From assembly GCA_009695045.1 (NCBI GenBank), contig SIBS01000007.1:1-35519 (forward strand): a DNA stretch of 35,519 nt. Reading direction: 5' to 3'. The DNA is from Candidatus Levyibacteriota bacterium. GTDB taxonomy: Bacteria; Patescibacteriota; Microgenomatia; Levybacterales; UBA12049. Below are positions 17,895 through 30,678 of the stretch, piece by piece; positions within the stretch are counted from its first letter, which is position 1; each line of letters opens with the position of its first letter. The position numbers and the translations under genes are program-made. Under the pieces are notes generated by a model. The model saw only the letters and a program-made list of their open reading frames with translations, did no database searches and had not been told where the DNA came from.

Positions 17895-19835
17895 TTATTT
17901 TAGAGAAGCGAGAAATTTTTCCTTGAGGTGATTAATTATTTTTTTTCTTACCACTACTACATCTTCTGATGTAATATTTTTATCTGGATGTTGATAGATT
18001 ATATGAAATGTTCGAGTATCTTTATAAATATTAAGCAGTGATACCTTAACGACAAGATGACTCTGTTTTTTTATTGATTCAATTATATCTCCAGTTTTAA
18101 TATCTGTAGAAATTATAATTGAAATATCTTCAATGATGGGAGGAAACTTAGGAATTGGTTGAAAAATTTTATTTTTCTCAACCTTATCTAACATATCTGT
18201 AATATTGATTTGAAAGTATACACCGTTTTCTATTATAGAAATTGCCGTAGAGGCATCCTCGTTAATGCCAAGGGTTCTATAGAGTAATTCGATAACTCCC
18301 TTTGCTTCATAAAAAGATTTAATATTACTTATTCCTGCGAGATAATATTTTTCACTTGTTTCTTTTATATTTTTACCCAAGTAAATTTTTCCTAATTCAA
18401 AAAGATTAATATGCTTTGCATATGGCATATTTTGTATAAGTGCTTTTTTTAAATTTATTTTAAGTGATTGTCGAAGATATTTAAAGTCTTTGCTTATGGG
18501 ATTATTTATTTGTAGATATTGAGATGGGTCTTCTTCATTTTGTAAAATATCATCCTCACTAATTAGACTATTTGTATATATTTCTGAAAAACCAGCCGAA
18601 GTAATTATTTTTTTTATTTCTTCATCTAATTTATAATCTTTAAAATAGGGAATTTTTTTCGTAGGTACTTCTCCTATTGGCATAGTTTTAGGAAAATTAT
18701 TATATCCATAAATCCTTGCAACCTCTTCAATAATGTCTTCTTCTATTTGTAAATCATTTCTATATGTGGGAATGGTGCATTCGATTAAGTTTCCCATTCT
18801 AATTTTTTTATAATCAGATTTTTTAGATTTATCTGGATTACAAAAATTAGGCATAATTTTAGGATTTAAGTTTAATCTAGTTAAGATATTAATAACATCT
18901 TCTTCGGGTATAGTAATTCCTAATATGAAAGATAGTCTTTCTAATCTGAGGGACACTGACCATGGTTCAAATTCATCTTTTTTAATATCATAAAGCGTGC
19001 TTGCAATATCTCCTCCAGCAAGCTCAAGTACTAAGTCAACACATCTTCTTATTGCATCTACAGTACCTCCTTTATTAACTCCTCTTTCAAAAATACTACT
19101 AGCTTCTGATCGCAAACCCAATGCTTGAGATGTTTTTCTAATTAATGTGGGTATCTCAACGGGTGCTCGTAAAATTATATTTTTGGTTTCTTGATATGTT
19201 CCAGTATTCTTGCCACCTTTTATTCCGCATAGGTCTATGATTTTATCTTTATCTTTAATAATAACAGCTCCTTTAGGAAGGGAATACGTAATTCCATCGA
19301 CGCTTTCAAAAACCTCTCCGCCTTTTGCTTGTTTTATTGTCATGCAGCTTCCGACAATTTTGTCGTAATCAAATGCATGTATTGGGTTGCCTAATTCAAG
19401 CATGACAAAGTTGGTTATATCAACAATATTATTAATTGGTCTTTGACCGACTTGTATTAATTTATCTCTTAACCATTTCGGAGATTCTTTTACGGTAATA
19501 TTTTTTATAATAATCGCAGTAAATCTAGGATTAATATTTGTATCTGTTTCAATTTTTAACAATAGTGGTTTTTTAATTTTTAGGTTTAATAAATCTGATT
19601 TAATTTTTGGTAGTTTTAGCGGAGCTTTTTCTATAGCTGAAATTTCTCTGGCAACTCCTAAAATAGAAAGAAGATCTGGTCTATTTGGTGTAATTTCTAA
19701 ATCAAATATGGTTTCCCCTCCTTCTTTATAAATTTTTTCAGTTCCTAGGCCAATTTCGATAAGTTTGTCACCAAGTATTTTAGGATCAATTTTTATTGCT
19801 ACATATTCTCGTAGCCAAGATAATGGTGCTTTCAT
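17895..19835 (-). CDS. pheT: phenylalanyl-tRNA synthetase beta subunit, short form
   Basis: Beta subunit of the (alpha-beta)2 PheRS. The N-terminal strand is followed at once by FDLEITPNRPDLLSILGVAREI, then the B3/4 editing domain (GLRSEASSIFERGVN), the B5 domain, the catalytic-like core with YGYNNFPKTMP, and a C-terminal FDX-ACB anticodon-binding domain. At 646 aa it is about 150 shorter than the E. coli protein because the OB-fold tRNA-binding (EMAPII-like) insertion is missing. It overlaps the nudix gene by 4 nt. Confidence 0.94.
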   Translation of the reverse strand: MKAPLSWLREYVAIKIDPKILGDKLIEIGLGTEKIYKEGGETIFDLEITPNRPDLLSILGVAREISAIEKAPLKLPKIKSDLLNLKIKKPLLLKIETDTNINPRFTAIIIKNITVKESPKWLRDKLIQVGQRPINNIVDITNFVMLELGNPIHAFDYDKIVGSCMTIKQAKGGEVFESVDGITYSLPKGAVIIKDKDKIIDLCGIKGGKNTGTYQETKNIILRAPVEIPTLIRKTSQALGLRSEASSIFERGVNKGGTVDAIRRCVDLVLELAGGDIASTLYDIKKDEFEPWSVSLRLERLSFILGITIPEEDVINILTRLNLNPKIMPNFCNPDKSKKSDYKKIRMGNLIECTIPTYRNDLQIEEDIIEEVARIYGYNNFPKTMPIGEVPTKKIPYFKDYKLDEEIKKIITSAGFSEIYTNSLISEDDILQNEEDPSQYLQINNPISKDFKYLRQSLKINLKKALIQNMPYAKHINLFELGKIYLGKNIKETSEKYYLAGISNIKSFYEAKGVIELLYRTLGINEDASTAISIIENGVYFQINITDMLDKVEKNKIFQPIPKFPPIIEDISIIISTDIKTGDIIESIKKQSHLVVKVSLLNIYKDTRTFHIIYQHPDKNITSEDVVVVRKKIINHLKEKFLASLK

Positions 19836-20254
19836 ATTATTTTTTTTGCTTCATCAACAAATTCTCTTGCGAATGGTAGAAAAGTTTCATCATCTATATC
19901 TTCGTATTTAAACCATCTTGCATCTTTGCTTTCATAATTTATTTTAATAGAGTTTTCTTCTTTAGTTCTTGATGGATATGCCAATAGTATAACTTGATTA
20001 TTTCGATCTATATCGATCATAGTTCTAATAATTGGATACTTGCTGATAATTTCGATATCAATACCTACCTCTTCTTTTGCTTCTCTTGCTGCAGAAAAAT
20101 CAGGCGATTCCCCTATTTCTACCATACCGCCTGGTAGTCCCCATTTTTCATGAAAATTAGGATTTGTAGGATCGTTGCGTTGCGCAAAAAGTATTTCATT
20201 TTTATCATTAAATATAATCGCAAGCGCAGCTATAATTTGTCTATTTATTTTCAT
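19832..20254 (-). CDS. NUDIX hydrolase inserted between pheS and pheT
   Basis: A 140-aa nudix fold. The complete nudix box GMVEIGE-x7-REAKEEVGI is present, so divalent-metal pyrophosphohydrolase activity is expected. Substrate cannot be read; the strands around QRNDPTNPNFHEKWGLPGG resemble MutT- and NadM-type nucleoside diphosphate hydrolases. It lies 1 nt after pheS and overlaps pheT by 4 nt, so it is translated with both PheRS subunits. This place between pheS and pheT is unusual. Confidence 0.9.
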   Translation of the reverse strand: MKINRQIIAALAIIFNDKNEILFAQRNDPTNPNFHEKWGLPGGMVEIGESPDFSAAREAKEEVGIDIEIISKYPIIRTMIDIDRNNQVILLAYPSRTKEENSIKINYESKDARWFKYEDIDDETFLPFAREFVDEAKKII

Positions 20255-20255
20255 A

Positions 20256-21293
20256 TTAAAATTGTTCTAAGATTCGTAAATCTGGATTAGTAAGGAGTCT
20301 TAAGTCGTCCATTTTATATCTAAGTGTTACTAGGCGCGACATGCCAATTGCGAATGCAAATCCTGAGACTTCTTGGGGATCATATCCTACTTTTCTTAAT
20401 ACATTTGGATGAATCATTCCTGCTGGCATAATTTCACTCCATCCAGAATTTTTACAAAAACTACATCCTTTACCTTTGCAAACAGTACATTCTATATATG
20501 TATCTACTCCTGGTTCGACGAATGGAAAGTTTGTTGTTGCAAATTTAATTTTTGTTTTATCTCCCATTAATTTTCCTAAAACAAAGGAAATTGTGCCGAA
20601 TAAGTCAGTTAATCTAATATGTTTATCAACGCAAAATCCTTCTACTTGCCAGAATTCAAATCCATGCGATGCATCAACTTGTTCATAGCGAAAATTCTTT
20701 CCAGGAACTATGACACGAAGTGGTGGTTTTGTTTTCTCCATTACTCGTCCCTGCATGGCTGATGTTTGTGTCCGTAAAATAATTTCTCCAGGATTTAAAT
20801 TAGTATCTCTCGTATTTAAATAAAATGTTTGCTGAGTATCTCTCGCAGGATGGTTTTTAGGAATATTTAATACCTCAAAGTTATAATAGTCACTTTCAAT
20901 TTCTGGACCATCTGCCGCTTGAAATCCAATAGTTTTAAATACATCAACAACATCATAAAGTATTTGTGTCATTGGATGTAGATGTCCTATTTCAGGTAGA
21001 ATTCCTGGGATACTTAAATCTATCTTGGACCTTCTTTCTTCAGTAATAAATTTCGTAAGAGTTTGAATTTTTTGATTTATTGCTTCTTCAACAATTCTTT
21101 TAATTTCATTTGCAAGCTGACCTATATCTCTTCTATCTTCGATTGGAACTTTAATAATATTTTTCATTGCAATTGTAAGCTTACCGCTTCGTCCAAGGAA
21201 TTGCATCCTCACTTCTTCAAGTGTTTTTTTGTCTTGAGCATCCAATATGAAGGATACGGCTATATTTTTAATATTTATTAGTTCGTCACGCAT
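20256..21293 (-). CDS. pheS: phenylalanyl-tRNA synthetase alpha subunit
   Basis: Catalytic class II subunit, 345 aa. Motif 2 is in GKNFRYEQVDASHGFEFWQVEGF and motif 3 in GFAFAIGMSRLVTLRY. The N-terminal coiled coil that grips tRNA is at about residues 1-90. A CxxC-x4-CxxC cluster (CTVCKGKGCSFCKNSGW) sits before motif 3, as in many bacterial PheS proteins. It heads pheS-nudix-pheT. A TTGAGT-17-TATACT element about 40 nt upstream is a likely promoter. No leader peptide with a terminator is visible here, unlike the neighbouring DAHP synthase gene. Confidence 0.95.
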   Translation of the reverse strand: MRDELINIKNIAVSFILDAQDKKTLEEVRMQFLGRSGKLTIAMKNIIKVPIEDRRDIGQLANEIKRIVEEAINQKIQTLTKFITEERRSKIDLSIPGILPEIGHLHPMTQILYDVVDVFKTIGFQAADGPEIESDYYNFEVLNIPKNHPARDTQQTFYLNTRDTNLNPGEIILRTQTSAMQGRVMEKTKPPLRVIVPGKNFRYEQVDASHGFEFWQVEGFCVDKHIRLTDLFGTISFVLGKLMGDKTKIKFATTNFPFVEPGVDTYIECTVCKGKGCSFCKNSGWSEIMPAGMIHPNVLRKVGYDPQEVSGFAFAIGMSRLVTLRYKMDDLRLLTNPDLRILEQF

Positions 21294-22188: not shown

Positions 22189-22212
22189 AAAAAAACCTCC
22201 CGAAGGGAGGTA
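22189..22212 (-). terminator. attenuator terminator of the DAHP synthase gene
   Basis: Minus strand: ACCTCCC-TTCG-GGGAGGT followed by seven T, ending at the ATG. The 3' arm GGGAGG is also the only good Shine-Dalgarno-like motif, 7 nt before the ATG, so the hairpin could both stop transcription and hide the ribosome site. It may also end read-through from rplT. Confidence 0.85.
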
Positions 22213-22240
22213 TATTGACTTGTGTTTTTCACACAATCCT

Positions 22241-22256
22241 ACCTCCCTTTAGGGAG
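22241..22256 (-). promoter_or_regulatory. regions 1 and 2 of the DAHP synthase attenuator
   Basis: CTCCCTAAAGGGAGGT forms a 1:2 hairpin that contains the leader stop TAA. Region 2 (GGGAGGT) is also complementary to region 3 (ACCTCCC), the 5' arm of the terminator. A short GTGTG-AAAAA-CACA hairpin lies between them. Confidence 0.75.
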
Positions 22257-22296
22257 TAAAATAGAAATATGTAAAAACTATTAAATTATTTTTCAT
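22249..22296 (-). CDS. aromatic leader peptide MKNNLIVFTYFYFTP
   Basis: A 15-residue ORF ending TTT ACA TAT TTC TAT TTT ACT CCC TAA: five of the last nine residues are Phe or Tyr. Its stop codon sits in arm 1 of the attenuator, so a ribosome that completes the peptide covers arms 1-2 and favours termination. Stalling at the Phe/Tyr codons would free arm 2 to pair with arm 3. This is the logic of the E. coli pheA and trp leaders. It lies in the gap between rplT and the DAHP synthase gene. AT-rich -10-like hexamers lie 10-18 nt upstream, with a TTGACA at 22339-22344 in the end of rplT. Confidence 0.8.
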   Translation of the reverse strand: MKNNLIVFTYFYFTP

Positions 22297-22327
22297 TATA
22301 TATAATATTATATTATACTAACAGCTA

Positions 22328-22672
22328 TTATCTGACACTGTCAACTATGTATTTGAATGTCTGTGAATCTTGAACAGCTAAATCGCTTAAGATTTTCCTG
22401 TCTAACATAATATCTGCCTTTTTTAATTTATCAATAAAAACATTATAAGAAAGACCTTCTTTTTTGACTGCTTCTCCAATACGAATAATCCATAATGATC
22501 TAAAATCTCTTTTTTTAACTTTTCTTCCATGAAAAGCATATGCTCCAGCATGTAGCATCGCTTGTGTTGCTGTTCTTACTAATTTACTCTTTGTTCCTCT
22601 ATATCCCTTGGTAAGACCAAGTAGTTTTTTATGTTTTCTTCGTGATACTGTTCCTCTTTTTACTCTTGCCAT
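22328..22672 (-). CDS. rplT: 50S ribosomal protein L20
   Basis: A 114-aa L20 with the family N terminus MARVKRGTVSRRKHKKLLGLTKGYRG and the C-terminal DRKILSDLAV segment. L20 is needed for early 50S assembly and in E. coli represses its own operon. It is last in thrS-infC-rpmI-rplT, 4 nt after rpmI. Its final codons contain a TTGACA that may serve the downstream leader peptide. Confidence 0.96.
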   Translation of the reverse strand: MARVKRGTVSRRKHKKLLGLTKGYRGTKSKLVRTATQAMLHAGAYAFHGRKVKKRDFRSLWIIRIGEAVKKEGLSYNVFIDKLKKADIMLDRKILSDLAVQDSQTFKYIVDSVR

Positions 22673-22676
22673 ATTA

Positions 22677-22877
22677 TTATAATGCTCCTAACATTTGTTT
22701 AATTTTTTTTGCAAATGCACCAGTTAAATGACCGGGTTCTTGTTGTCGACGAATCTGTCGTTTATTTTTACGACGTTTTAAATGGCCCTTGCTGTTTTGA
22801 TGTTCAAACATTACCTTGCCCGTCTTGGTTATTTTGAACCGCTTGCTTACTGATTTCTTGATTTTTTTCTTTATCAT
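22677..22877 (-). CDS. rpmI: 50S ribosomal protein L35
   Basis: A 66-aa L35 (KSVSKRFKITKTGKVMFEHQNSKGHLKRRKNKRQ, shown only as class marker; the KRFKITKTGK motif is diagnostic). The start at 22877 lies inside the 3' end of infC, a 74-nt overlap in another frame, which is large and suggests translational coupling. Confidence 0.94.
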   Translation of the reverse strand: MIKKKIKKSVSKRFKITKTGKVMFEHQNSKGHLKRRKNKRQIRRQQEPGHLTGAFAKKIKQMLGAL

Positions 22878-23424
22878 TATTTTTTTTCCTTTCTGGTGCT
22901 AGCATGGTTACTAACTGTTTTCCTTCAAAATGTGCTTCTCTATCAACTTTAGAAATATTGGAAAGTAGAGTTATTGTTTTATTAATAATCTGATATCCAA
23001 ATTCTGGATGAGTAATTTGTCTCCCTTTAAATTTTAAGACTAATCTTACTTTATCCCCATCTTCTAAAAATTCTCTTGCTCTGGCAACTCGAACATTTAA
23101 ATCATGATCTTCCATGAATGGTCCAAGTCGTATTTCTTTCGTTTCAGATACCTTTGCTTTTCTTTTATCCTCTCTTTTCTTTTTTTCTTGTTGATACAAG
23201 AATTTTTTAAAATTTACAATTTTAGCGACTGGTGGTTTTGCATTTGGTGCAACTTCTACCAAATCAAGACTCTGTTCTTTTGCTCGATTTAATCCTTCTT
23301 GACGACTAAGTAAGCCAACCATCTTCCCATCTGCATCGAGAACTCGAAGCTGTTGGGCGAAAATTCGCTCGTTTACTCTATATATTATTCTATTGTCTGT
23401 TTTACGTTTATGCCTTTTTATCAA
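22804..23424 (-). CDS. infC: translation initiation factor IF-3
   Basis: Binds the 30S subunit and enforces start-codon and initiator tRNA fidelity. The N-terminal domain (RVNERIFAQQLRVLDADG), linker and C-terminal domain (KETKEIRLGPFMEDHDLNVRVARAREFLEDGDKVRL region) are all present. No ATG precedes the conserved VNERI segment; a TTG at 23424 overlapping the end of thrS by 17 nt is the only standard start, giving a 17-residue basic extension. A rare start (AUA/AUU, as AUU in E. coli infC) nearer to VNERI is possible. The tail after EGKQLVTMLAP is Lys/Asn/Gln-rich. Confidence 0.92.
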   Translation of the reverse strand: MIKRHKRKTDNRIIYRVNERIFAQQLRVLDADGKMVGLLSRQEGLNRAKEQSLDLVEVAPNAKPPVAKIVNFKKFLYQQEKKKREDKRKAKVSETKEIRLGPFMEDHDLNVRVARAREFLEDGDKVRLVLKFKGRQITHPEFGYQIINKTITLLSNISKVDREAHFEGKQLVTMLAPERKKNNDKEKNQEISKQAVQNNQDGQGNV

Positions 23425-25165
23425 TGTCTTCCTTAACCTTTTGTATTATTAAATCAATTGATAATTGTCCTAAATCTTGCCCACCCCTTGTTCTTATAGA
23501 AGCAGTTAAATTATCAATGTTTGATTCTCTGTCTCCCATTATACCTAAAAAGGGGACTTTTTGTAAAGTAGCATCTCTGATCTTGGATTGCATGCTTTCC
23601 GATCGATTATCTACCTCTACTCTGATACCCTCCAAAGCAAGCGCTACCTTTATTTTATTAGCTGATTCAATGTGACGATCTGCAATTGGTATTAACATAA
23701 TCTGTAATGGTGAAAGCCATACGGGAAATTTTCCAGCATAATGTTCAATAAGAAAGGCTATAAATCTTTCGTGTACTGATAGTGGTGCACGATGAATAAC
23801 GAATACATCATTGTTTTCTTTTCCATCCTGATCGATATAAGATAATCCAAATCTTTTTTTTGCCGCGAAATCTAACTGAATAGTAGACATTGTTTCTTCT
23901 CTTCCTACAATAGATTTAAATTGCACATCAACCTTTGGACCATAAAAAGCTGCTTCATTTTCTGCTTCAACAAATTTTACATTTAATTCCTCAAGTACCT
24001 CACGTAGTATTTGCTCTGTATATTCCCAATTTTCTGGTTCATCAATATATTTTTCTGTATTTTTTTGATTCCATTTTGAAAGACGAAACCAATAATCTTC
24101 TAGGCCAAAGATTTTAAAATATTCCATTGTTAGTTTTATAACGTTTTTAAACTCATTTTTAATCTGGTCTTTTCTGCAATAAATATGTGCGTCGTTCATT
24201 GTCATTCCACGGACTCGTAATAATCCAGCAAGTGTGCCAGATAATTCATTTCGATAGCATGTTCCATATTCTGCTAATCGCAATGGTAATTCTTTATAGC
24301 TTTTTTGGTTGTGCAGATAAATAGTATGATGATGTGGACAATTCATTGCCCTAAGATAATAGGCTCCATCATCCATTATCATTGGTGGATACATACTGTC
24401 TTTGTAATATGGAAGATGACCAGATAAAGTAAAAAGTTCTTCTTTCGCAATATGTGGGGTGGATACGCGAACATAACCAGCTTCTTTCTCCTTTTTCTTT
24501 ACAAGTTCTTCTATCTCGTCTTTAATAATAGTTCCATTAGGGAGCCACATAATAAGTCCTTTTCCAACACGTTCATCTATAAAAAATAAGTTAAGTTCTT
24601 GACCAAGTTTTCTGTGGTCACGTTTCTTTGCTTCTTCAAGCATTGTAAAATGAGTATCAAGCTCCTCTTTTGATTTAAAAGATATTCCGTAAATTCTTGT
24701 AAGCATTGGATTTTTTTCATTTCCTCGCCAATATGCGCCTGCGACAGAAATAAGCTTGAAATGTTTTAATTCTTTGCTTGGTTGTTCGCAGTGTCCTCCC
24801 TTGCATAGATCCCAAAATTCACCTGATTTATAAAAAGACACTTTTTCTTCATTTTGAGTAAATTCCTTAATGAGCTCATTTTTATATGGATTATTTATAT
24901 ATTGATTTTTAGCTTCTTCAGCGGATAATTCTTGTCTTTCAAATGTTTCCCATGATGGTAGGATTTCTAACATTTTTGCTTCAATTTTTGGAAAATCTTC
25001 TTCTGAAATTTTTTCATTGCCAAAGTCAAAATCAAAGTAAAATCCATTCTCTGTAGCTGGACCAATTGCGCGTTTTGCGTTCGGCCATAATTCCATAACG
25101 GCAGCAGCGAGTAGGTGCGATGTTGAATGTCGAAGATTTGAAAGATTATTTTTATCTTGATTCAT
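23408..25165 (-). CDS. thrS: threonyl-tRNA synthetase without TGS domain
   Basis: Class II synthetase of 585 aa. It begins directly with the second-additional (editing) domain, with HSTSH near residue 13 and the C-x3-H pair in CKGGHCE. The N-terminal TGS domain of about 60 residues is absent. The catalytic core has the zinc-ligand region RAMNCPHHH and class II motif 3 around HRAPLSVHERFIAFLIEHY. The anticodon-binding domain is C-terminal. TGATATAGT ends 6 nt before the ATG, predicting a leaderless mRNA. It is first in the conserved thrS-infC-rpmI-rplT operon. Confidence 0.95.
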   Translation of the reverse strand: MNQDKNNLSNLRHSTSHLLAAAVMELWPNAKRAIGPATENGFYFDFDFGNEKISEEDFPKIEAKMLEILPSWETFERQELSAEEAKNQYINNPYKNELIKEFTQNEEKVSFYKSGEFWDLCKGGHCEQPSKELKHFKLISVAGAYWRGNEKNPMLTRIYGISFKSKEELDTHFTMLEEAKKRDHRKLGQELNLFFIDERVGKGLIMWLPNGTIIKDEIEELVKKKEKEAGYVRVSTPHIAKEELFTLSGHLPYYKDSMYPPMIMDDGAYYLRAMNCPHHHTIYLHNQKSYKELPLRLAEYGTCYRNELSGTLAGLLRVRGMTMNDAHIYCRKDQIKNEFKNVIKLTMEYFKIFGLEDYWFRLSKWNQKNTEKYIDEPENWEYTEQILREVLEELNVKFVEAENEAAFYGPKVDVQFKSIVGREETMSTIQLDFAAKKRFGLSYIDQDGKENNDVFVIHRAPLSVHERFIAFLIEHYAGKFPVWLSPLQIMLIPIADRHIESANKIKVALALEGIRVEVDNRSESMQSKIRDATLQKVPFLGIMGDRESNIDNLTASIRTRGGQDLGQLSIDLIIQKVKEDIDKKA

Positions 25166-25171
25166 ATGCTT

Positions 25172-25180
25172 ACTATATCA
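25172..25180 (-). promoter_or_regulatory. extended -10 of thrS
   Basis: TGATATAGT with the hexamer at 25172-25177, 6 nt before the ATG. This is the same geometry as tyrS and the PBP gene. Confidence 0.55.
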
Positions 25181-25253
25181 GAAAGAGCCTTTTTTATAAA
25201 GAATTAGTAAATTATAAAATTTTGAATATATTATTACCTTTTTTTAATTGATT

Positions 25254-25850
25254 TTATTTCTTTTTATTTTTTGTAAATCCTAATTCATCATTAATTTTTT
25301 GCATTGCAATAAGTGCAATCTCCAAAAATTGAGGTAGAGGAATTGATAACTTCCATTCGCATAGCTCTATCTGTTCCCTATTCGCATCTGGAATAAAATT
25401 AATGTCATTAAACTTATTAAGTATAAAAAGTGAATTCATGGCTTTGAGATTTTTACCTATATGTACTTTTGCACACATCATAATAAATCCACTGAGCTCA
25501 TCACAGCAGGAAATGCTCCAATCCATAAGAGATTTTGGTTCTATTCCATTTTGCTGCCAGTTGTGAGATTTCATTGCATAAAGCATTTCTGGATTAACGA
25601 TATCTTTTATAACTTTTTCAAGCATGAGGGTGTGTTGCTTTGGTAAATGTCTTGTTTTTTGATAGTCTAAATCGTGTAGTAATCCTACTATTCCCCACTC
25701 ATTTTCATTTAGTGGAATTGGTAAAACTTTTTCATTGAAATGAGAAGCTAAGGCTTTCATAATTGCTTCACAAGCAAGACTATGAAAAATAATCTCCTTT
25801 TTATTTACATATTCATGTAATAGCTTTAGCGCTTTTGGTCTGGTAATCAT
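25254..25850 (-). CDS. HD-domain phosphohydrolase-like protein
   Basis: A roughly 198-aa HD-superfamily protein. The metal-binding pattern is present: His in IIFHSLACEA, the HD pair in WGIVGLLHDLDYQKT, then His in LPKQHTLM and a later Asp in SCCDELSGF. Relatives hydrolyse nucleotides or phosphate esters; the substrate is unknown. Two in-frame ATGs exist (25856 and 25850). A TATAAT lies 6 nt before the second, which matches the window's leaderless pattern, so I prefer 25850. It is downstream of tRNA-Val and may share its transcript. Confidence 0.8.
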   Translation of the reverse strand: MITRPKALKLLHEYVNKKEIIFHSLACEAIMKALASHFNEKVLPIPLNENEWGIVGLLHDLDYQKTRHLPKQHTLMLEKVIKDIVNPEMLYAMKSHNWQQNGIEPKSLMDWSISCCDELSGFIMMCAKVHIGKNLKAMNSLFILNKFNDINFIPDANREQIELCEWKLSIPLPQFLEIALIAMQKINDELGFTKNKKK

Positions 25851-25875
25851 GGGCATATTATAATTTGTAATATTG

Positions 25876-25949
25876 TGGGCCCAAGAGGATTCGAACCTCT
25901 GACCTTTACAATGTCAATGTAACGCTCTAACCAACTGAGCTATGAGCCC
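25876..25949 (-). tRNA. tRNA-Val (GAC)
   Basis: Cloverleaf of 74 nt. The acceptor arms are GGGCTCA and TGGGCCC, and the anticodon arm is TTACA-TTGACAT-TGTAA with anticodon GAC. The T-loop is GTTCGAATC. The discriminator is A and CCA is not encoded. Confidence 0.95.
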
Positions 25950-25977
25950 GTATAAGTATTTTAACAGCGAACTAAAA

Positions 25978-27072
25978 TTATGTAAAGCTTATAAGTGATT
26001 GGATGACTTTTTCACAAAATTGTGCTGCTTGAAACATTTCTTCAATTTCTAGATATTCTTTTGTTGTGTGGCATTGATACATTCCTGTTCCCAAAACTAT
26101 TGCCTCTATACCATTTGCGTGAAATATATTTACATCAGTTGCTCCACCCGATGGTATGCAGGTTGATATAAGTCCCATTTTTTGATATATTTTATTTAGT
26201 TTTTTAATAAAATCATGATTCGTATCGAAATTATATGGAGCGAATTGTTGTTTAAGAGTTAATTCTATTTTTGCTCCATCATATTTTTTAATAACTTCAT
26301 AAAATATTTTTTGAAATGTTAAAGTAAGACTTTCTAATTTATTTATACTTCTGCTTCTTATTTCACCTTTTATTTCGATTGTTTCTGGTATTGCATTTCT
26401 TGCTGATCCACCATTTATAATTCCAATATTTGATGTTGTTTCATCGTCTATTCTACCAAGAGGAAGCTTGCTTATAATTTCAGATGCGATGCGAATAGCA
26501 GAGATGCCTTTCTCTGGTTCGGCTCCAGCATGAGCACTTCTTCCAGTAATAACTACATCAACTTTAGTGTACCCAGGTGCAGCAGTATGAATATCTGTAC
26601 ATGGTCCACCACCATCAAAGGTGATTCCCTGCTTAGAATTAATTAAAGAATAATCAAGATTTAAAGCACCCATTAGGCCATTTTCTTCACCAATGGTAAA
26701 TACGATTTCTAGATTTGGTAATTTATTCCCCATCTCCCTTAATGAGGTTAATGATTCAAGTATGATTGCTATACCGCTTTTAGGATCTGCACCAAGTATT
26801 GTTGATTCATCAGAAAAAAAACGACCCCCTTTTTTTATTGGCTTAATACCTCTAGATGGCTCTACTGTGTCTAAGTGTGCATTTAAAATAAATGGTTTTC
26901 CTTCGCCCGAAATTTTACCGATGACATTCCCATATGTATCAAAAATTACAGTGGCGCCTATCTCTTCTAATCTTTTTTTAACTTCATTTGCGATTAGTTT
27001 TTCTTCTCCTGATGGGCTATCTATCTTTACTAAATCAACAAATGTTGAACTAAGCCTTTTCTTATTAATCAT
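25978..27072 (-). CDS. M20-family metallopeptidase (tripeptidase PepT-like)
   Basis: Cytoplasmic zinc aminopeptidase-like protein of 364 aa. It has the first ligand motif HLDTVEP near residue 66, the bridging Asp in GADPKSG, the catalytic Glu pair in TIGEENGLMG, a further Asp near FDGGG, and the last His in MYQCHTTKEYLEIEEM. A lid domain sits in the middle (GRSAHAGAEPEKG). It probably releases amino acids from short peptides, which fits a scavenging lifestyle. A leader peptide with tandem Cys codons and a terminator stand before its start, suggesting control by amino-acid supply. Confidence 0.85.
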   Translation of the reverse strand: MINKKRLSSTFVDLVKIDSPSGEEKLIANEVKKRLEEIGATVIFDTYGNVIGKISGEGKPFILNAHLDTVEPSRGIKPIKKGGRFFSDESTILGADPKSGIAIILESLTSLREMGNKLPNLEIVFTIGEENGLMGALNLDYSLINSKQGITFDGGGPCTDIHTAAPGYTKVDVVITGRSAHAGAEPEKGISAIRIASEIISKLPLGRIDDETTSNIGIINGGSARNAIPETIEIKGEIRSRSINKLESLTLTFQKIFYEVIKKYDGAKIELTLKQQFAPYNFDTNHDFIKKLNKIYQKMGLISTCIPSGGATDVNIFHANGIEAIVLGTGMYQCHTTKEYLEIEEMFQAAQFCEKVIQSLISFT

Positions 27073-27078
27073 AATTAT

Positions 27079-27102
27079 AAAAAAACCCGCCTAAGCGGGT
27101 TG
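27079..27102 (-). terminator. attenuator terminator of the M20 peptidase gene
   Basis: Minus strand: ACCCGC-TTAG-GCGGGT followed by T7, ending 6 nt before the peptidase ATG. Upstream, GGTTATGTAAA (region 2) can pair with TTTACAACC, which overlaps the 5' arm, and ACCGC-TGAA-GCTGGT can form hairpin 1:2. Confidence 0.85.
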
Positions 27103-27124
27103 TAAATATTTTACATAACCAGCT

Positions 27125-27163
27125 TCAGCGGTATATACTGCAACAGGAATAATTTTTTTTCAT
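27125..27163 (-). CDS. leader peptide MKKNYSCCSIYR of the peptidase gene
   Basis: A 12-residue ORF with tandem Cys codons flanked by Ser and Tyr. Its stop TGA is in the loop of hairpin 1:2 (CCGC-TGAA-GC), exactly as in the ilvA leader. The ATG is 8 nt after TACAAT of a TTGCAT-17-TACAAT promoter, so the mRNA is effectively leaderless. The natural reading is attenuation of the peptidase by charged tRNA-Cys, or possibly tRNA-Tyr or tRNA-Ser. Confidence 0.75.
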   Translation of the reverse strand: MKKNYSCCSIYR

Positions 27164-27171
27164 ATATTTAA

Positions 27172-27200
27172 ATTGTAGCAATCTATAAAGCGATATGCAA
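27172..27200 (-). promoter_or_regulatory. promoter of the peptidase leader
   Basis: TTGCAT (27195-27200), 17 nt, TACAAT (27172-27177), minus strand, 8 nt before the leader ATG. Confidence 0.65.
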
Positions 27201-27332
27201 GTTTAGTAATTTTATAATTAACTAATTATTAATCTCCATTTTTATAAATTAATATTATATACATAATTTTGTTGTAAATTTATCCTCCTGAGTTGTTTAG
27301 AATATTTTTATTAATTTATTTTTTAAAATATT

Positions 27333-27361
27333 TTGCTTAGCCTATCAAGTTATGATAAAAT
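27333..27361 (+). promoter_or_regulatory. promoter of the HIT-family gene
   Basis: TTGCTT (27333-27338), 17 nt, TAAAAT (27356-27361); the ATG at 27375 is 13 nt further on. Confidence 0.5.
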
Positions 27362-27374
27362 CATAATACTAAAA

Positions 27375-27830
27375 ATGAAAGAAAAAAATATAAACTCCGA
27401 ATTAGAGCATGCTCCTTGTCCGTTTTGTGAAATTATTGATGGAAAAATTGATGCAAGCATTATTAGAAGAGAAGAAGGGTCCATTGCATTTATGGACCAT
27501 AATGGTTATCCATTAGTTGTCACGTCAAAACATATTGTTGATATAAATTCTGATGATTTTAAAAAATCAAAAGCAATGGAATTAGTTACAAGTATTGTTG
27601 GTCCTACATTAAAATCTTATGATGGCGCAACTGGCATTGAATTAAAAATTAATTTAGGAAAGCCAAAGCAAGAAATACTCCATCTCCATATTCATATAAT
27701 ACCTACTTATGTAGATTCACAAAAAAGGCCTAAATTTATTTTCAAATTATCTAAAGAAGTCCTTGATGATCGTGCTCTTAGAATAAAAACAGAATATGAT
27801 TTGATAAATCAGATTCCGAGATCTGGCTGA
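27375..27830 (+). CDS. HIT-family nucleotide-binding hydrolase
   Basis: A 151-aa histidine-triad protein. It opens with CPFCEIIDGKI, a Cys pair common in HIT proteins, and contains the triad HLHIHIIP near residue 108, where the last His is the AMP-accepting nucleophile. It probably hydrolyses AMP conjugates or dinucleoside polyphosphates. The frame is open from 27333, but the promoter hexamers occupy that stretch, so the ATG at 27375 is used. Its last codons overlap the end of the convergent gene by 22 nt. It ends in TGA. Confidence 0.9.
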   Translation: MKEKNINSELEHAPCPFCEIIDGKIDASIIRREEGSIAFMDHNGYPLVVTSKHIVDINSDDFKKSKAMELVTSIVGPTLKSYDGATGIELKINLGKPKQEILHLHIHIIPTYVDSQKRPKFIFKLSKEVLDDRALRIKTEYDLINQIPRSG

Positions 27831-28714
27831 AAAATTATTTGATCTTTTTTGTTTGTAAAATCAGTGATTATTTTGTTCTTTGTTTTTATTCTGGGTTTAG
27901 TTTTTTTTCTTTTTTTAATTTCATATTCAATTGCATTATTTTCTAAATTTTTCCATATTTCATTAGGATCATATATGGCAATTGCTCCACTCTTAATATA
28001 ATTAATTGTTGGATTAAAGTAATCACATGTTAACTTTTTTATATTTTGAATATGAACACCAACAGGAGCTGTATCTTTAATAATTTCTCTAGCCTCTCTT
28101 ATTTTATCAAATAACTGTTCGCGCTCCTCATTGGTTATGTCTCCAATTACTGCAATATCTATATTACTTGGGAATTCATGATCTTTATTTTTAATTAAAC
28201 ATTTTGCAACTGATCCAAATAAAATTATTGCAATAGGTTTATTTATTTCAATTTTGTTCCATGATGAGATTATCTTCGTTTTTATTTCATTAACTTTTTT
28301 TAATAGTTCTTCTACCCATTCATAATCGACCTGTGTCTCAATAAATGATTTTCCAATTTCTTTTGTTGGATATCTTTTTTTTAAAATACTGCAACTTGAT
28401 ATAAGGCTTAATTTAATATTTAATTTTTCTTTATCTTTCGGTGTAATTTTTAATAATTTTATTAGTCTCTCTCTTTCTAATTGTGGATTTATAGTTTTTT
28501 TTTCATCTTCTGTCATTCTTGTTTTAGTTTCCATTTCTTTTCTTGCAAAAATTATTTTTTCTTTTATTTCTTCTGGTGCAGCAATTTTAATTCCAAGATT
28601 AGGTAGTGTTACTAATACTGGTTTTAATACATCAAGCATAGTACCAGATTGATCTTTAATTGGTAATTCAAATTGCATGCTTTGATAATTATGTTTTTCT
28701 ATTGAATTAGTCAT
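27809..28714 (-). CDS. nucleotidyltransferase-domain protein of unknown role
   Basis: A 301-aa protein. The C-terminal half has a pol-beta/MNT-type motif, AIILFGSVAKCL followed by NIDIAVIGD, giving the GS-x-DxD metal site, and a later VGVHIQN strand. The first motif has Cys where Gly is usual. The N-terminal 150 residues are charged and helical (TEDEKKTINPQLERERL) and not recognised. It could be an antitoxin-like or tRNA-modifying nucleotidyltransferase; I cannot choose. The frame begins at a TTG inside the terminator T-tract, so the ATG at 28714 is used. A leader ORF and terminator precede it, placing it with amino-acid-regulated genes. Confidence 0.7.
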   Translation of the reverse strand: MTNSIEKHNYQSMQFELPIKDQSGTMLDVLKPVLVTLPNLGIKIAAPEEIKEKIIFARKEMETKTRMTEDEKKTINPQLERERLIKLLKITPKDKEKLNIKLSLISSCSILKKRYPTKEIGKSFIETQVDYEWVEELLKKVNEIKTKIISSWNKIEINKPIAIILFGSVAKCLIKNKDHEFPSNIDIAVIGDITNEEREQLFDKIREAREIIKDTAPVGVHIQNIKKLTCDYFNPTINYIKSGAIAIYDPNEIWKNLENNAIEYEIKKRKKTKPRIKTKNKIITDFTNKKDQIIFQPDLGI

Positions 28715-28727
28715 ATGTTTATAAACC

Positions 28728-28752
28728 AAAAAATCTCCCTTTCGGGAGATTT
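28728..28752 (-). terminator. terminator before the nucleotidyltransferase gene
   Basis: Minus strand: AATCTCCC-GAAA-GGGAGATT with T6, ending about 14 nt before the ATG at 28714. GGGAGA at about 28785-28790, just after the leader stop, can pair with TCTCCC of the 5' arm as an antiterminator. Confidence 0.8.
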
Positions 28753-28796
28753 GTTACTGCTTTTTTAATTAATTTATGTAATCTTCTCCCAGTTAA

Positions 28797-28868
28797 TTAA
28801 TTCTCATTAATAATGAGAATAATATAAATGAGATTATGCCATAAGTTAGAAATTTTACTTTTTTGCAT
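28797..28868 (-). CDS. 23-aa Ile/Leu-rich leader peptide of the nucleotidyltransferase gene
   Basis: The ORF begins MQKSKISNLWH and ends NLIYIILIINEN with TAA. Six Ile and three Leu codons are concentrated near the end. The last codons form a perfect hairpin (ATTCTCATT/AATGAGAAT). The ATG is 8 nt after the TATAAT of a strong promoter, so it is translated from an essentially leaderless RNA. The regulatory pairing is less clear than in the aromatic and ilvA leaders, because arm 1 pairs within the ORF rather than with the antiterminator arm. Confidence 0.65.
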   Translation of the reverse strand: MQKSKISNLWHNLIYIILIINEN

Positions 28869-28876
28869 AGAGAACG

Positions 28877-28905
28877 ATTATATCTTATTAAGATTATTTT
28901 TTCAA
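28877..28905 (-). promoter_or_regulatory. promoter of the nucleotidyltransferase leader
   Basis: TTGAAA (28900-28905), 17-nt spacer, TATAAT (28877-28882), 8 nt to the leader ATG. Confidence 0.75.
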
Positions 28906-28917
28906 GAATTAAATAAA

Positions 28918-29298
28918 TTATTTAATCAATGCAATTATGGATATTTCTACTTTTGCATTTTTAGGAAGCGCTGATACTTGAACTGTTGCTCGGGCAGGTT
29001 TATGCAGGGAAAAAAAAGAGCCATATATTTTATTGAATAAGACATAGTCATTCATGTCAGATAAATAACAAGTTGTTTGTACAATATTTTCCAAATTACT
29101 CCCTGCTACTTTTAAAATTTCTTTAAGATTTATGATTATTTGCTTTGTTTGTTCTTCTATTGTATCTCCGGCAAATTGTTCAGTAGATGGATCAATTCCA
29201 ATCTGTCCTGAACAAAAGATAAATTTATTAGCAATGATTGCCTGTGAATATGGGCCTACTACTTTTGGTGCTTTTGATGTTTCAATAGTTTTTATCAT
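28918..29298 (-). CDS. ridA: RidA family enamine/imine deaminase
   Basis: A 126-aa YjgF/RidA protein that hydrolyses reactive 2-aminoacrylate and 2-aminocrotonate, the enamine intermediates released by PLP dehydratases such as IlvA. Motifs present are APKVVGPYSQAI, FCSGQIGIDP, TTCYLSDMNDYVLFNKIYGSFF and RATVQVSALPK, whose Arg binds the substrate carboxylate. Its start overlaps the ilvA stop by 4 nt, so enzyme and damage-control partner are co-translated. Confidence 0.95.
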   Translation of the reverse strand: MIKTIETSKAPKVVGPYSQAIIANKFIFCSGQIGIDPSTEQFAGDTIEEQTKQIIINLKEILKVAGSNLENIVQTTCYLSDMNDYVLFNKIYGSFFSLHKPARATVQVSALPKNAKVEISIIALIK

Positions 29299-30545
29299 AA
29301 TATAAATTTATATAATGGATCTTCTGCTTCAATCTTAGTATATTTTATTTGTGCATCATCCATTTTATTGATAAGCGGTTGAAGACCTTCTTTTTTAGAT
29401 AATTCAATGCCTATAAGGGCTGGTCCTGTTTCTTTGAAAGTTTTTTTTATATATTCAAATCGAGCAATATCATCGCCTGGTCCCAATACGCTATTTACAA
29501 AAAATTTTAGTTGTCCTGGTTTTTGTGCAAAGTTAATAATAAAGTAGTGTTTTAATCCTTTGTAGATAAGACTTTTTTCCATAATTTCTGGGTATCGCAT
29601 TATGTCATTATTTCCTCCACTAAGTACGCAGGTAACTGTTTTACCTCTTATTTCATCTTTTATATCATCAAGAGCACTTATGGAAAGCGCACCTGCTGGT
29701 TCTGTGATTATGCCTTCATTTTGATATAAATCAATCATGGTGCTACAGACTTTTCCTTCGTCACTAAGAACTATTTTTTTGACTAGACGAGATGCAATTT
29801 GAAATGGAATATTACCGACAGTTTGAACAGCAGCCCCATCGACAAATGTATCAATACTTTTAAGTGTAATAATCTTTTTTTGTTTTAGCGACTCATGCAT
29901 TGAAGGTGCGCCTTTTGGCTCTACGCCTATGATTATGCATTTTTTTGCTTTTTTTTCTGCATAGATACTAACACCAGCTATAAGTCCTCCTCCTCCGATA
30001 GGGCATATAATATAGTCTACTGTAGTTTCTGATTGTTCTATAATCTCTTTACCTACAGTTGCTTGTCCTGAAATGGTTAGTTCATTATCGAATGGGTGTA
30101 CAAATACCATATTTTTTTTCTTGCAAAATATTTTTGCAGCTGTTGAGCTTTCATCATATGTTTGTCCAATAAGTTTTATTTCAATCCATTCCTGACCAAA
30201 CTGTTTTACTTTATTAATTTTTTGCAATGGAGTAATTGATGGCATAAAGATAACAGCTTTTGTATGAAGAATGCTTGCGCTTTGAGCAACTCCCTGTGCA
30301 TGATTTCCCGCACTAGCGCAAACTACACCTTTTTTCCTTTTTAAATTACTTAAGGAGCTCATTAAATTATATGCCCCTCTTATTTTATAAGATCTTACAT
30401 CTTGAAGATCCTCTCTCTTTAAATATATATTTGCATTATATAAAGTAGATAATCTTTTGTTAAATTGAAGCGGTGTTTTTTTTGCAATGCCTACAAGTTG
30501 ATTAGCTGCTTCATTTATTGTATTTTCGTTAATATTGTAATTCAT
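29295..30545 (-). CDS. ilvA: threonine dehydratase with short regulatory domain
   Basis: PLP enzyme converting threonine to 2-oxobutyrate for isoleucine synthesis. The Schiff-base Lys is in KREDLQDVRSYKIRGAYN near residue 55, the phosphate-binding loop is CPIGGGGLIAG, and a Ser/Gly loop is in VLSGGNND. A C-terminal ACT-like domain of about 85 residues (AQKPGQLKFFVNSVLGPGDDI) marks the biosynthetic, allosteric form of about 416 aa, as in Firmicutes and Actinobacteria, not the domain-less catabolic TdcB. An Ile/Thr-rich leader peptide and terminator lie upstream and ridA follows with overlap. No other Ile pathway gene is in the window. Confidence 0.93.
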   Translation of the reverse strand: MNYNINENTINEAANQLVGIAKKTPLQFNKRLSTLYNANIYLKREDLQDVRSYKIRGAYNLMSSLSNLKRKKGVVCASAGNHAQGVAQSASILHTKAVIFMPSITPLQKINKVKQFGQEWIEIKLIGQTYDESSTAAKIFCKKKNMVFVHPFDNELTISGQATVGKEIIEQSETTVDYIICPIGGGGLIAGVSIYAEKKAKKCIIIGVEPKGAPSMHESLKQKKIITLKSIDTFVDGAAVQTVGNIPFQIASRLVKKIVLSDEGKVCSTMIDLYQNEGIITEPAGALSISALDDIKDEIRGKTVTCVLSGGNNDIMRYPEIMEKSLIYKGLKHYFIINFAQKPGQLKFFVNSVLGPGDDIARFEYIKKTFKETGPALIGIELSKKEGLQPLINKMDDAQIKYTKIEAEDPLYKFIL

Positions 30546-30551
30546 AAAAAT

Positions 30552-30576
30552 AAAAAACCTCCCATTAGGAGGTTTT
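30552..30576 (-). terminator. attenuator terminator of ilvA
   Basis: Minus strand: AAAACCTCC-TAAT-GGGAGGTTTTTT, ending about 6 nt before the ilvA ATG. Region 2, AGAGGTGGTTT (directly after the leader stop), is complementary to region 3, AAAACCTCC. Region 1, ACCTC, pairs with GAGGT of region 2. Confidence 0.9.
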
Positions 30577-30598
30577 CGATTTACGATAAACCACCTCT

Positions 30599-30643
30599 TC
30601 AGGAGGTAATAAAATCAATAATAGTAATTTTTTGTATTTTCAT
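30599..30643 (-). CDS. Ile/Thr leader peptide MKIQKITIIDFITS of ilvA
   Basis: A 14-residue ORF with five Ile and two Thr, the product and the substrate-side amino acids of the enzyme it precedes. The Ile/Thr run ATT ACT ATT ATT lies about eight codons before the stop. The stop TGA sits in the loop of hairpin 1:2 (ACCTCCTGAAGAGGT). The ATG is exactly 6 nt after TACAAT of a TTGACA-17-TACAAT promoter, so translation must start at the 5' end of a leaderless RNA. The layout matches classical ilv/thr attenuation. Confidence 0.85.
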   Translation of the reverse strand: MKIQKITIIDFITS

Positions 30644-30649
30644 ATTAAT

Positions 30650-30678
30650 ATTGTATGGCTAACAATTTTAAATGTCAA
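30650..30678 (-). promoter_or_regulatory. promoter of the ilvA leader
   Basis: TTGACA (30673-30678), 17-nt spacer, TACAAT (30650-30655), then 6 nt to the leader ATG. This is one of the best promoter matches in the window. Confidence 0.8.

Follow-up and report, generated by a model that had tools for sequence, protein, structure and literature searches.

The window analyzed here is the whole 35,519-nucleotide stretch of Candidatus Levyibacteriota contig SIBS01000007.1, which is one entire contig (C12) of a 96%-complete, 677 kb genome in 13 contigs. Its size and a DUF5660 domain found in it fit an origin in the Candidate Phyla Radiation (CPR)/Patescibacteria, and the source cell is tiny and probably host-dependent. 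Four of its minus-strand genes, coding for a DAHP synthase, a PepT-like M20 peptidase, a nucleotidyltransferase-like (NT-like) protein and the threonine ammonia-lyase IlvA, are each preceded by a short leader open reading frame (ORF), a GC stem and a run of six or seven T residues, just as a first-pass annotation of this DNA had described. Based on their sequence features, we regard these elements as very likely to be ribosome-mediated transcription attenuators.

Anatomy of the four leader elements

The DAHP synthase gene (PF00793; 21424..22188, on the minus strand like all features below) is the first of a DAHP-pheS-NUDIX-pheT series, of which the 3' members (17895..21293) probably belong to the same operon; its leader lies between rplT and these genes. 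A predicted sigma70-type promoter (TTGACA-18-TAGTAT; 22315..22344), with a spacing less typical than that in relatives, precedes a 15-codon leader ORF (MKNNLIVFTYFYFTP; 22249..22296) with Phe/Tyr control codons. Arms 1 and 2 form a CTCCC/GGGAG hairpin (22241..22256), the loop of which contains the stop codon of the leader; arm 2 is also complementary to arm 3, with which it makes up a predicted antiterminator, a single long hairpin with an inner helix (22205..22247; minimum free energy -19.1, z -5.9), and arms 3 and 4 form an intrinsic terminator (ACCTCCC-TTC-GGGAGG-T7; 22189..22211, stem 22211..22195), whose T7 abuts the ATG. The gene ilvA (29295..30545), which encodes an enzyme with a C-terminal regulatory domain and is followed by ridA (28918-29298), displays a predicted promoter (TTGACA-17-TACAAT; 30650..30678) 6 nt 5' of the ATG of a 14-codon leader with Ile and Thr (MKIQKITIIDFITS; 30599..30643), and an intrinsic 3:4 terminator (GAAAACCTCCTAATGGGAGGTTTTTTATTTTT; 30553..30577).

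At the M20 peptidase gene (TIGR01883; 25978..27072), a predicted promoter (TTGCAT-17-TACAAT; 27172..27200) ends 8 nt 5' of the ATG of a 12-codon leader with Cys-Cys, Tyr and Ser (MKKNYSCCSIYR; 27125..27163), of which the Cys-Cys pair points to cysteine, and the 3:4 terminator is AACCCGC-TTAG-GCGGGTT with a T run (27084..27101). The NT-like gene (27809..28711), whose product has a weak Polbeta match (PF18765) below the cut-off and gave nothing useful in a PDB search, is preceded by a predicted promoter (TTGAAA-17-TATAAT; 28877..28905), again 8 nt 5' of the leader ATG, a 23-codon leader with Ile/Leu (MQKSKISNLWHNLIYIILIINEN; 28797..28868), an arm 2 candidate (GGGAGA) and a 3:4 terminator (AAATCTCCC-GAAA-GGGAGATTT with a T run; 28731..28752). 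Mutually exclusive 1:2, 2:3 and 3:4 pairings are present throughout, with 1:2 unclear in the NT element and 2:3 imperfect in the M20 element. The control codons lie just 5' of arm 1 and the stop within 1:2 in the DAHP, ilvA and M20 leaders, which bears out the earlier statement on the stop codon in three of the four; the NT leader ends past a separate hairpin.

The four-locus pattern exceeds chance. A covariance model with a 24-element seed (model R2), which includes the DAHP and ilvA elements of the window and neither the M20 nor the NT element, ranked the four window loci ahead of every other match over the whole genome (E 1.6e-5, 3.7e-5, 0.0084 and 0.0406, values that are rough owing to a short calibration). 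The M20 (E 0.0084) and NT (E 0.0406) elements were thus recovered despite their absence from the seed. As the fifth match (contig C5, position 116514; E 0.79) is a plain terminator that lacks a suitable leader, all R2-detectable elements of the genome lie on the window contig. A separate scan for leader ORF, 2:3 pairing and terminator over ~255 kb (about a third of the genome; 279 ORFs of at least 100 aa) placed ilvA and DAHP above the rest, along with one further high-scoring locus that is doubtful. The string GGTTTTTT-N-ATG is not commoner in the genome than its reversed control, and a bare T run before an ATG is therefore uninformative.

Promoter position, pairing specificity and cognate codons

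To place these elements in context, 112 elements were parsed, and their downstream genes were grouped by BLAST, with representatives checked against Pfam and NCBIfam. Stop position, start codon and promoter guided the choice of leaders, in which composition played no part. A covariance model from four clean relatives (model R1) was applied to the retrieved loci; MAFFT alignments put the arms in the wrong place, and the elements were realigned to a model seeded with four clean sequences.

The leader was set in advance in 28 promoter-tested elements, and in 21 of these its start lies 5-12 nt past the end of a strong sigma70-like promoter, as against 1.2% of 3173 control ATGs. Shine-Dalgarno-like motifs precede only 3 of 112 leaders versus 40 of 108 main genes. 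This promoter position and the scarcity of such motifs suggest that transcripts begin at or within a few nt of the start codon, and that the leader ORFs, with a -10 box mostly 6-13 nt before the start and no Shine-Dalgarno sequence, are probably leaderless. The Shine-Dalgarno-like motif of the main gene falls in the arm 4 region in 21 of 43 short-gap elements, including that of the window's DAHP synthase gene (GGGAGG-T7-ATG), where arm 4 is itself the Shine-Dalgarno-like sequence, 7 nt before the ATG; closing of 3:4 could hence block translation as well.

In most elements, the stretch spanning arms 2 and 3 folds into a single long hairpin that contains an inner helix (mean z -3.2 over 28). In alignment A8, which was fitted to both 1:2 and 3:4, these two helices are paired in 95% of cells. 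The 2:3 helix, to which the alignment was not fitted, is paired in 78.8% of cells versus 72.6% in shuffled alignments, with a covariation of 0.209 versus 0.129 (0 of 500 shuffles), and is best at zero slide. Moreover, an element's arm 2 pairs better with its own arm 3 (13.3) than with that of another element (10.2), the maximum of 200 mismatched sets being 11.4.

Leader codons match the class of the downstream gene when gene-class labels are permuted over the parsed elements, an enrichment check of the kind proposed in the first-pass annotation. Phe, Tyr and Trp make up 33% of DAHP/pheS/pheA leaders (n=30) versus 4% of other leaders (p<=5e-5), with pheS, in its class, often being the second gene, behind a variable small gene. 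Enrichment was likewise recovered for Ile in ilvA leaders (p 5e-5), Val in ilvB/E leaders (p 5e-5), Leu in leuA leaders (p 1.5e-4) and Thr in thrS/aspartokinase leaders (p 5e-5), and single cases pair Ile with cimA, ICC with cysK and MMDMM with a SAM hydrolase. Thr showed no enrichment in ilvA leaders over the other classes (p 0.52).

We accordingly propose the following mode of action. Transcription would start at or a few nt before the start codon of the 12-23 codon leader ORF, which would be translated without a Shine-Dalgarno sequence. When the cognate charged tRNA is plentiful, the ribosome would reach the stop in the 1:2 hairpin and cover arm 2, which would leave arm 3 to arm 4 and make RNA polymerase terminate ahead of the gene. 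Under a shortage of that amino acid, the ribosome would stall at the control codons. As the last of these precedes arm 1 by a few codons, and the stop is placed within or beside the 1:2 loop, the stalled ribosome would free arm 2 for arm 3, and the long 2:3 antiterminator would form in place of the terminator, allowing the gene to be read. Control of DAHP synthase-pheST by Phe/Tyr and of ilvA-ridA by Ile (perhaps Thr) is a well-supported prediction, and control of the NT-like gene by Ile/Leu and of the PepT-like M20 peptidase by Cys (perhaps Tyr) is likely, with less certainty.

Conservation of the loci and competing explanations

An IlvA-based search of 119 genomes recovered Ile-rich leaders at nine ilvA loci, including that of the window (e.g., MLIKKAQIIINIITP, MNKNQIITITTIPS and MKSIFAGIINIITTR), and in five relatives the element stands before ilvB instead of ilvA. 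All 12 of the close DAHP synthase homologues, again with that of the window, display an aromatic leader (FWFYFTS, FYFFFYFTS, FYFYFTS and similar), which in one genome lies one gene upstream. The outcome named beforehand as damaging to the attenuation reading was that relatives would keep the terminators and lose the leader ORFs or cognate codons; instead, in the ilvA and DAHP orthologues the leader ORF and its cognate codons persist together with the pairing set (the 1:2 hairpin at the stop, the long 2:3 antiterminator and the terminator). The only fairly close NT relative with such an element, in genome G017 (41% identity), has a leader (MNSKVLSVRLVLLITR) and a terminator, and M20 peptidases stand behind branched-chain amino acid (BCAA) leaders in four relatives. 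A remoter NT relative, in genome G106, has an aromatic leader, i.e., a different specificity.

Several observations weigh against attenuation at all four loci. Ten ilvA loci in the 119-genome search have no element directly upstream (several element-free loci sit within ilv/leu operons), and this 96%-complete genome yielded no ilvB, which makes the Ile specificity of ilvA odd here, as an Ile-type attenuator thus heads an ilvA (29295-30545) without an evident isoleucine pathway. Leader and terminator are both missing from the two closest M20 orthologues (57-58% identity), and the M20 2:3 helix of the window, in which one position is mismatched, gives a weak fold (z -1.3). The NT element departs from the others in its 1:2 geometry and has few relatives.

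The absence of the element from the M20 orthologues, the imperfect M20 2:3 helix and the position of the NT stop outside 1:2 would all fit an explanation in which only the ilvA and DAHP elements are true attenuators, and those of M20 and NT resemble them by chance or are copies in decay. We consider this unlikely, while granting it an appreciable chance, given that R2, seeded without either element, scored both above the rest of the genome (E 0.0084 and 0.04 per genome), that a predicted promoter ends 8 nt 5' of the leader ATG in each, and that BCAA leaders recur at the NT relative in G017 and before M20 peptidases in four relatives. The ilvA and DAHP synthase elements are secure in our assessment, and the M20 element with its Cys-Cys leader and the NT element are likely true, if weaker. 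The cognate amino acids assigned to the M20 and NT elements of the window are tentative.

That the hairpins are ordinary terminators of the upstream genes, with incidental short ORFs, might be suggested by the commonness of intergenic terminators and by same-strand upstream genes that end shortly before; however, each leader is separated from the upstream gene by a promoter, arm 2 is specific for its own arm 3, and the layout is kept in orthologues, which renders this explanation barely credible. T-boxes regulate the same kinds of genes in Firmicutes, which would favor a different RNA sensor (a T-box, riboswitch or protein-bound antiterminator), the leader ORF being carried along without a role. 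Against this, the leaders are only ~110 nt long, conservation falls on the coding content of the ORF, and no T-box or riboswitch family matched in the window at the gathering threshold or in scans of the DAHP and ilvA leaders (E<=1); such a sensor is most improbable, and the T-box, riboswitch and plain-terminator explanations were rejected. The recurring C-terminal residues of the leaders (e.g., FTS and ITR) could instead speak for arrest peptides or trans-acting peptides that do not count codons. Such peptides are very unlikely, as these residues are encoded by arm 1 (ACCTCC and ACCCGC) and leader composition tracks the gene rather than one arrest motif. Ribosome-mediated attenuation thus remains our preferred interpretation.

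Spread among relatives and comparison with known systems

At E<=0.01, R2 returned 117 matches in 68 of 188 relatives, with ~2 expected by chance. Of 380 genomes sampled evenly over the phylum, 9 (including that of the window) have matches at E<=0.003, where chance alone would give ~1; convincing cases outside the class include poly-Tyr leaders before GCS2-like genes in two genomes and aromatic leaders in two others, and one further match outside the class looks like a plain terminator. Among named genomes, a separate ilvA-based search recovered two loci and no more, the closest named ilvA relative being in Ca. Nealsonbacteria (61% identity). The same architecture recurs with matching codons at leuA, ilvB, ilvE, cimA, thrS, aspartokinase, pheS, pheA and cysK, and the idea of a regulon of amino-acid attenuators put forward in the first-pass annotation is thereby supported as a regulon-level system in CPR-like genomes.

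The survey also recovered several noteworthy individual loci. GCS2-like genes stand behind poly-Tyr leaders in two distant genomes (L240, MNKQIFVKIFNYYYSH; L236, MVFKFITQNYYYYYSELSFR). Locus L209 (genome G025) has tandem attenuators (158-235 and 261-355) with Thr-rich leaders (e.g., MANQFISTTTTIS and MKKYIFIIETTTTTQ) before a HAD gene and thrS. At four loci (L244, L246, L251 and L253), operons behind BCAA leaders code for a large protein without a Pfam match and M20 peptidases, along with GCS2-like, ATP-grasp or MR_MLE enzymes, and possibly represent an undescribed peptide pathway. A poly-Leu leader (MSRLRTEILLLLLLVSPGEVSF) precedes a 151-aa protein without a Pfam match at L235, and at L230 a leader (MTIQSSVMMDMMLAS; 152-230) that is a possible methionine-sensing attenuator precedes a SAM hydroxide adenosyltransferase. 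In the same genome as the window, a SAM-I riboswitch-like aptamer (RF00162; 38.5 bits, E 1.1e-7, gathering 44.4; L098 1360-1464 on contig C2, before L128:8032) and a terminator precede a Cys/Met-metabolism PLP (pyridoxal phosphate) enzyme.

CPR/Patescibacteria have been described as lacking most amino-acid synthesis (PMC11665869). Gene control in these organisms is little known, and a codon-readable sensor in dozens of genomes would show which amino acids are still monitored. These attenuators tie together synthesis, tRNA charging and peptide salvage, give amino-acid clues for unannotated operons, and mark promoters and start sites potentially usable as genetic parts. More tentatively, and with somewhat less than even confidence, attenuation might be general in Patescibacteria, perhaps passed down from a common ancestor with Proteobacteria at the pheM position of the thrS-infC-rpmI-rplT-pheST cluster, and might assign amino acids to operons of unknown function; leader peptides would then reveal the purpose of, for example, the M20 peptidase/GCS2-like/ATP-grasp clusters and the NT-like genes.

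Leader-peptide systems had been known only in Proteobacteria and Actinobacteria, to which Firmicutes were added (Naville and Gautheret 2010, PMC2965389). In line with the earlier claim that no description exists for CPR, we found no report of leader-peptide attenuation in Patescibacteria, CPR or Parcubacteria, subscription papers and preprints being outside the search; the papers on Saccharibacteria that it returned seem, from their titles, to concern other matters. The Ile, Leu, Val and Thr attenuators of Proteobacteria and Actinobacteria share with the present elements a cognate-rich leader, a terminator and an antiterminator before ilvA, ilvB, leuA and aspartokinase genes. Here, however, they occur in another phylum, with each gene or small operon having an element of its own (ilvB, ilvA and leuA have separate leaders) and with targets that include thrS, cimA, a SAM hydrolase and peptidase operons. 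Leaderless attenuator ORFs have precedents in the polycysteine attenuators of mycobacteria and trpL of Sinorhizobium (PMC9031893, PMC7298713), in which the leader ORF lies at the RNA 5' end, a placement that in our elements is predicted from promoter position; they differ from ours in phylum, and ours cover many amino-acid specificities.

The closest counterpart is pheM-pheST of E. coli. The E. coli K-12 order is thrS-infC-rpmI-rplT-pheM-pheS-pheT, and many relatives have a run of an HD protein gene, thrS, infC, rpmI and rplT (the latter four read from sequence resemblance) headed by BCAA leaders and variable genes, with aromatic leaders between rplT and pheS-pheT. The aromatic element thus holds the cluster position of pheM, with the window adding DAHP synthase before pheS. 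The peptides are similar (a relative's leader is MNSKKFYFFFYFTS), and both have the 1:2/2:3/3:4 set and a terminator; they differ in the DAHP synthase or variable small gene before pheS and in the lack of a Shine-Dalgarno sequence before the leader here. An Rfam search of the window at the gathering threshold returned tRNAs only. The best sub-threshold match was Phe_leader (RF01859; gathering 55), both for the DAHP leader (34.6 bits, E 2.4e-4) and for the ilvA leader (32.2 bits, E 5.9e-4); conversely, R2 run on 10 kb of E. coli gave pheM as its sole, weak match (16.9 bits, E 0.44). Common descent and convergence may both be compatible with the element at the pheM position, and the addition of a distant lineage to leader-peptide systems raises the question of an ancient pheM-type attenuation. 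The mechanism itself is known; as far as the literature we found goes, the lineage is new for it.

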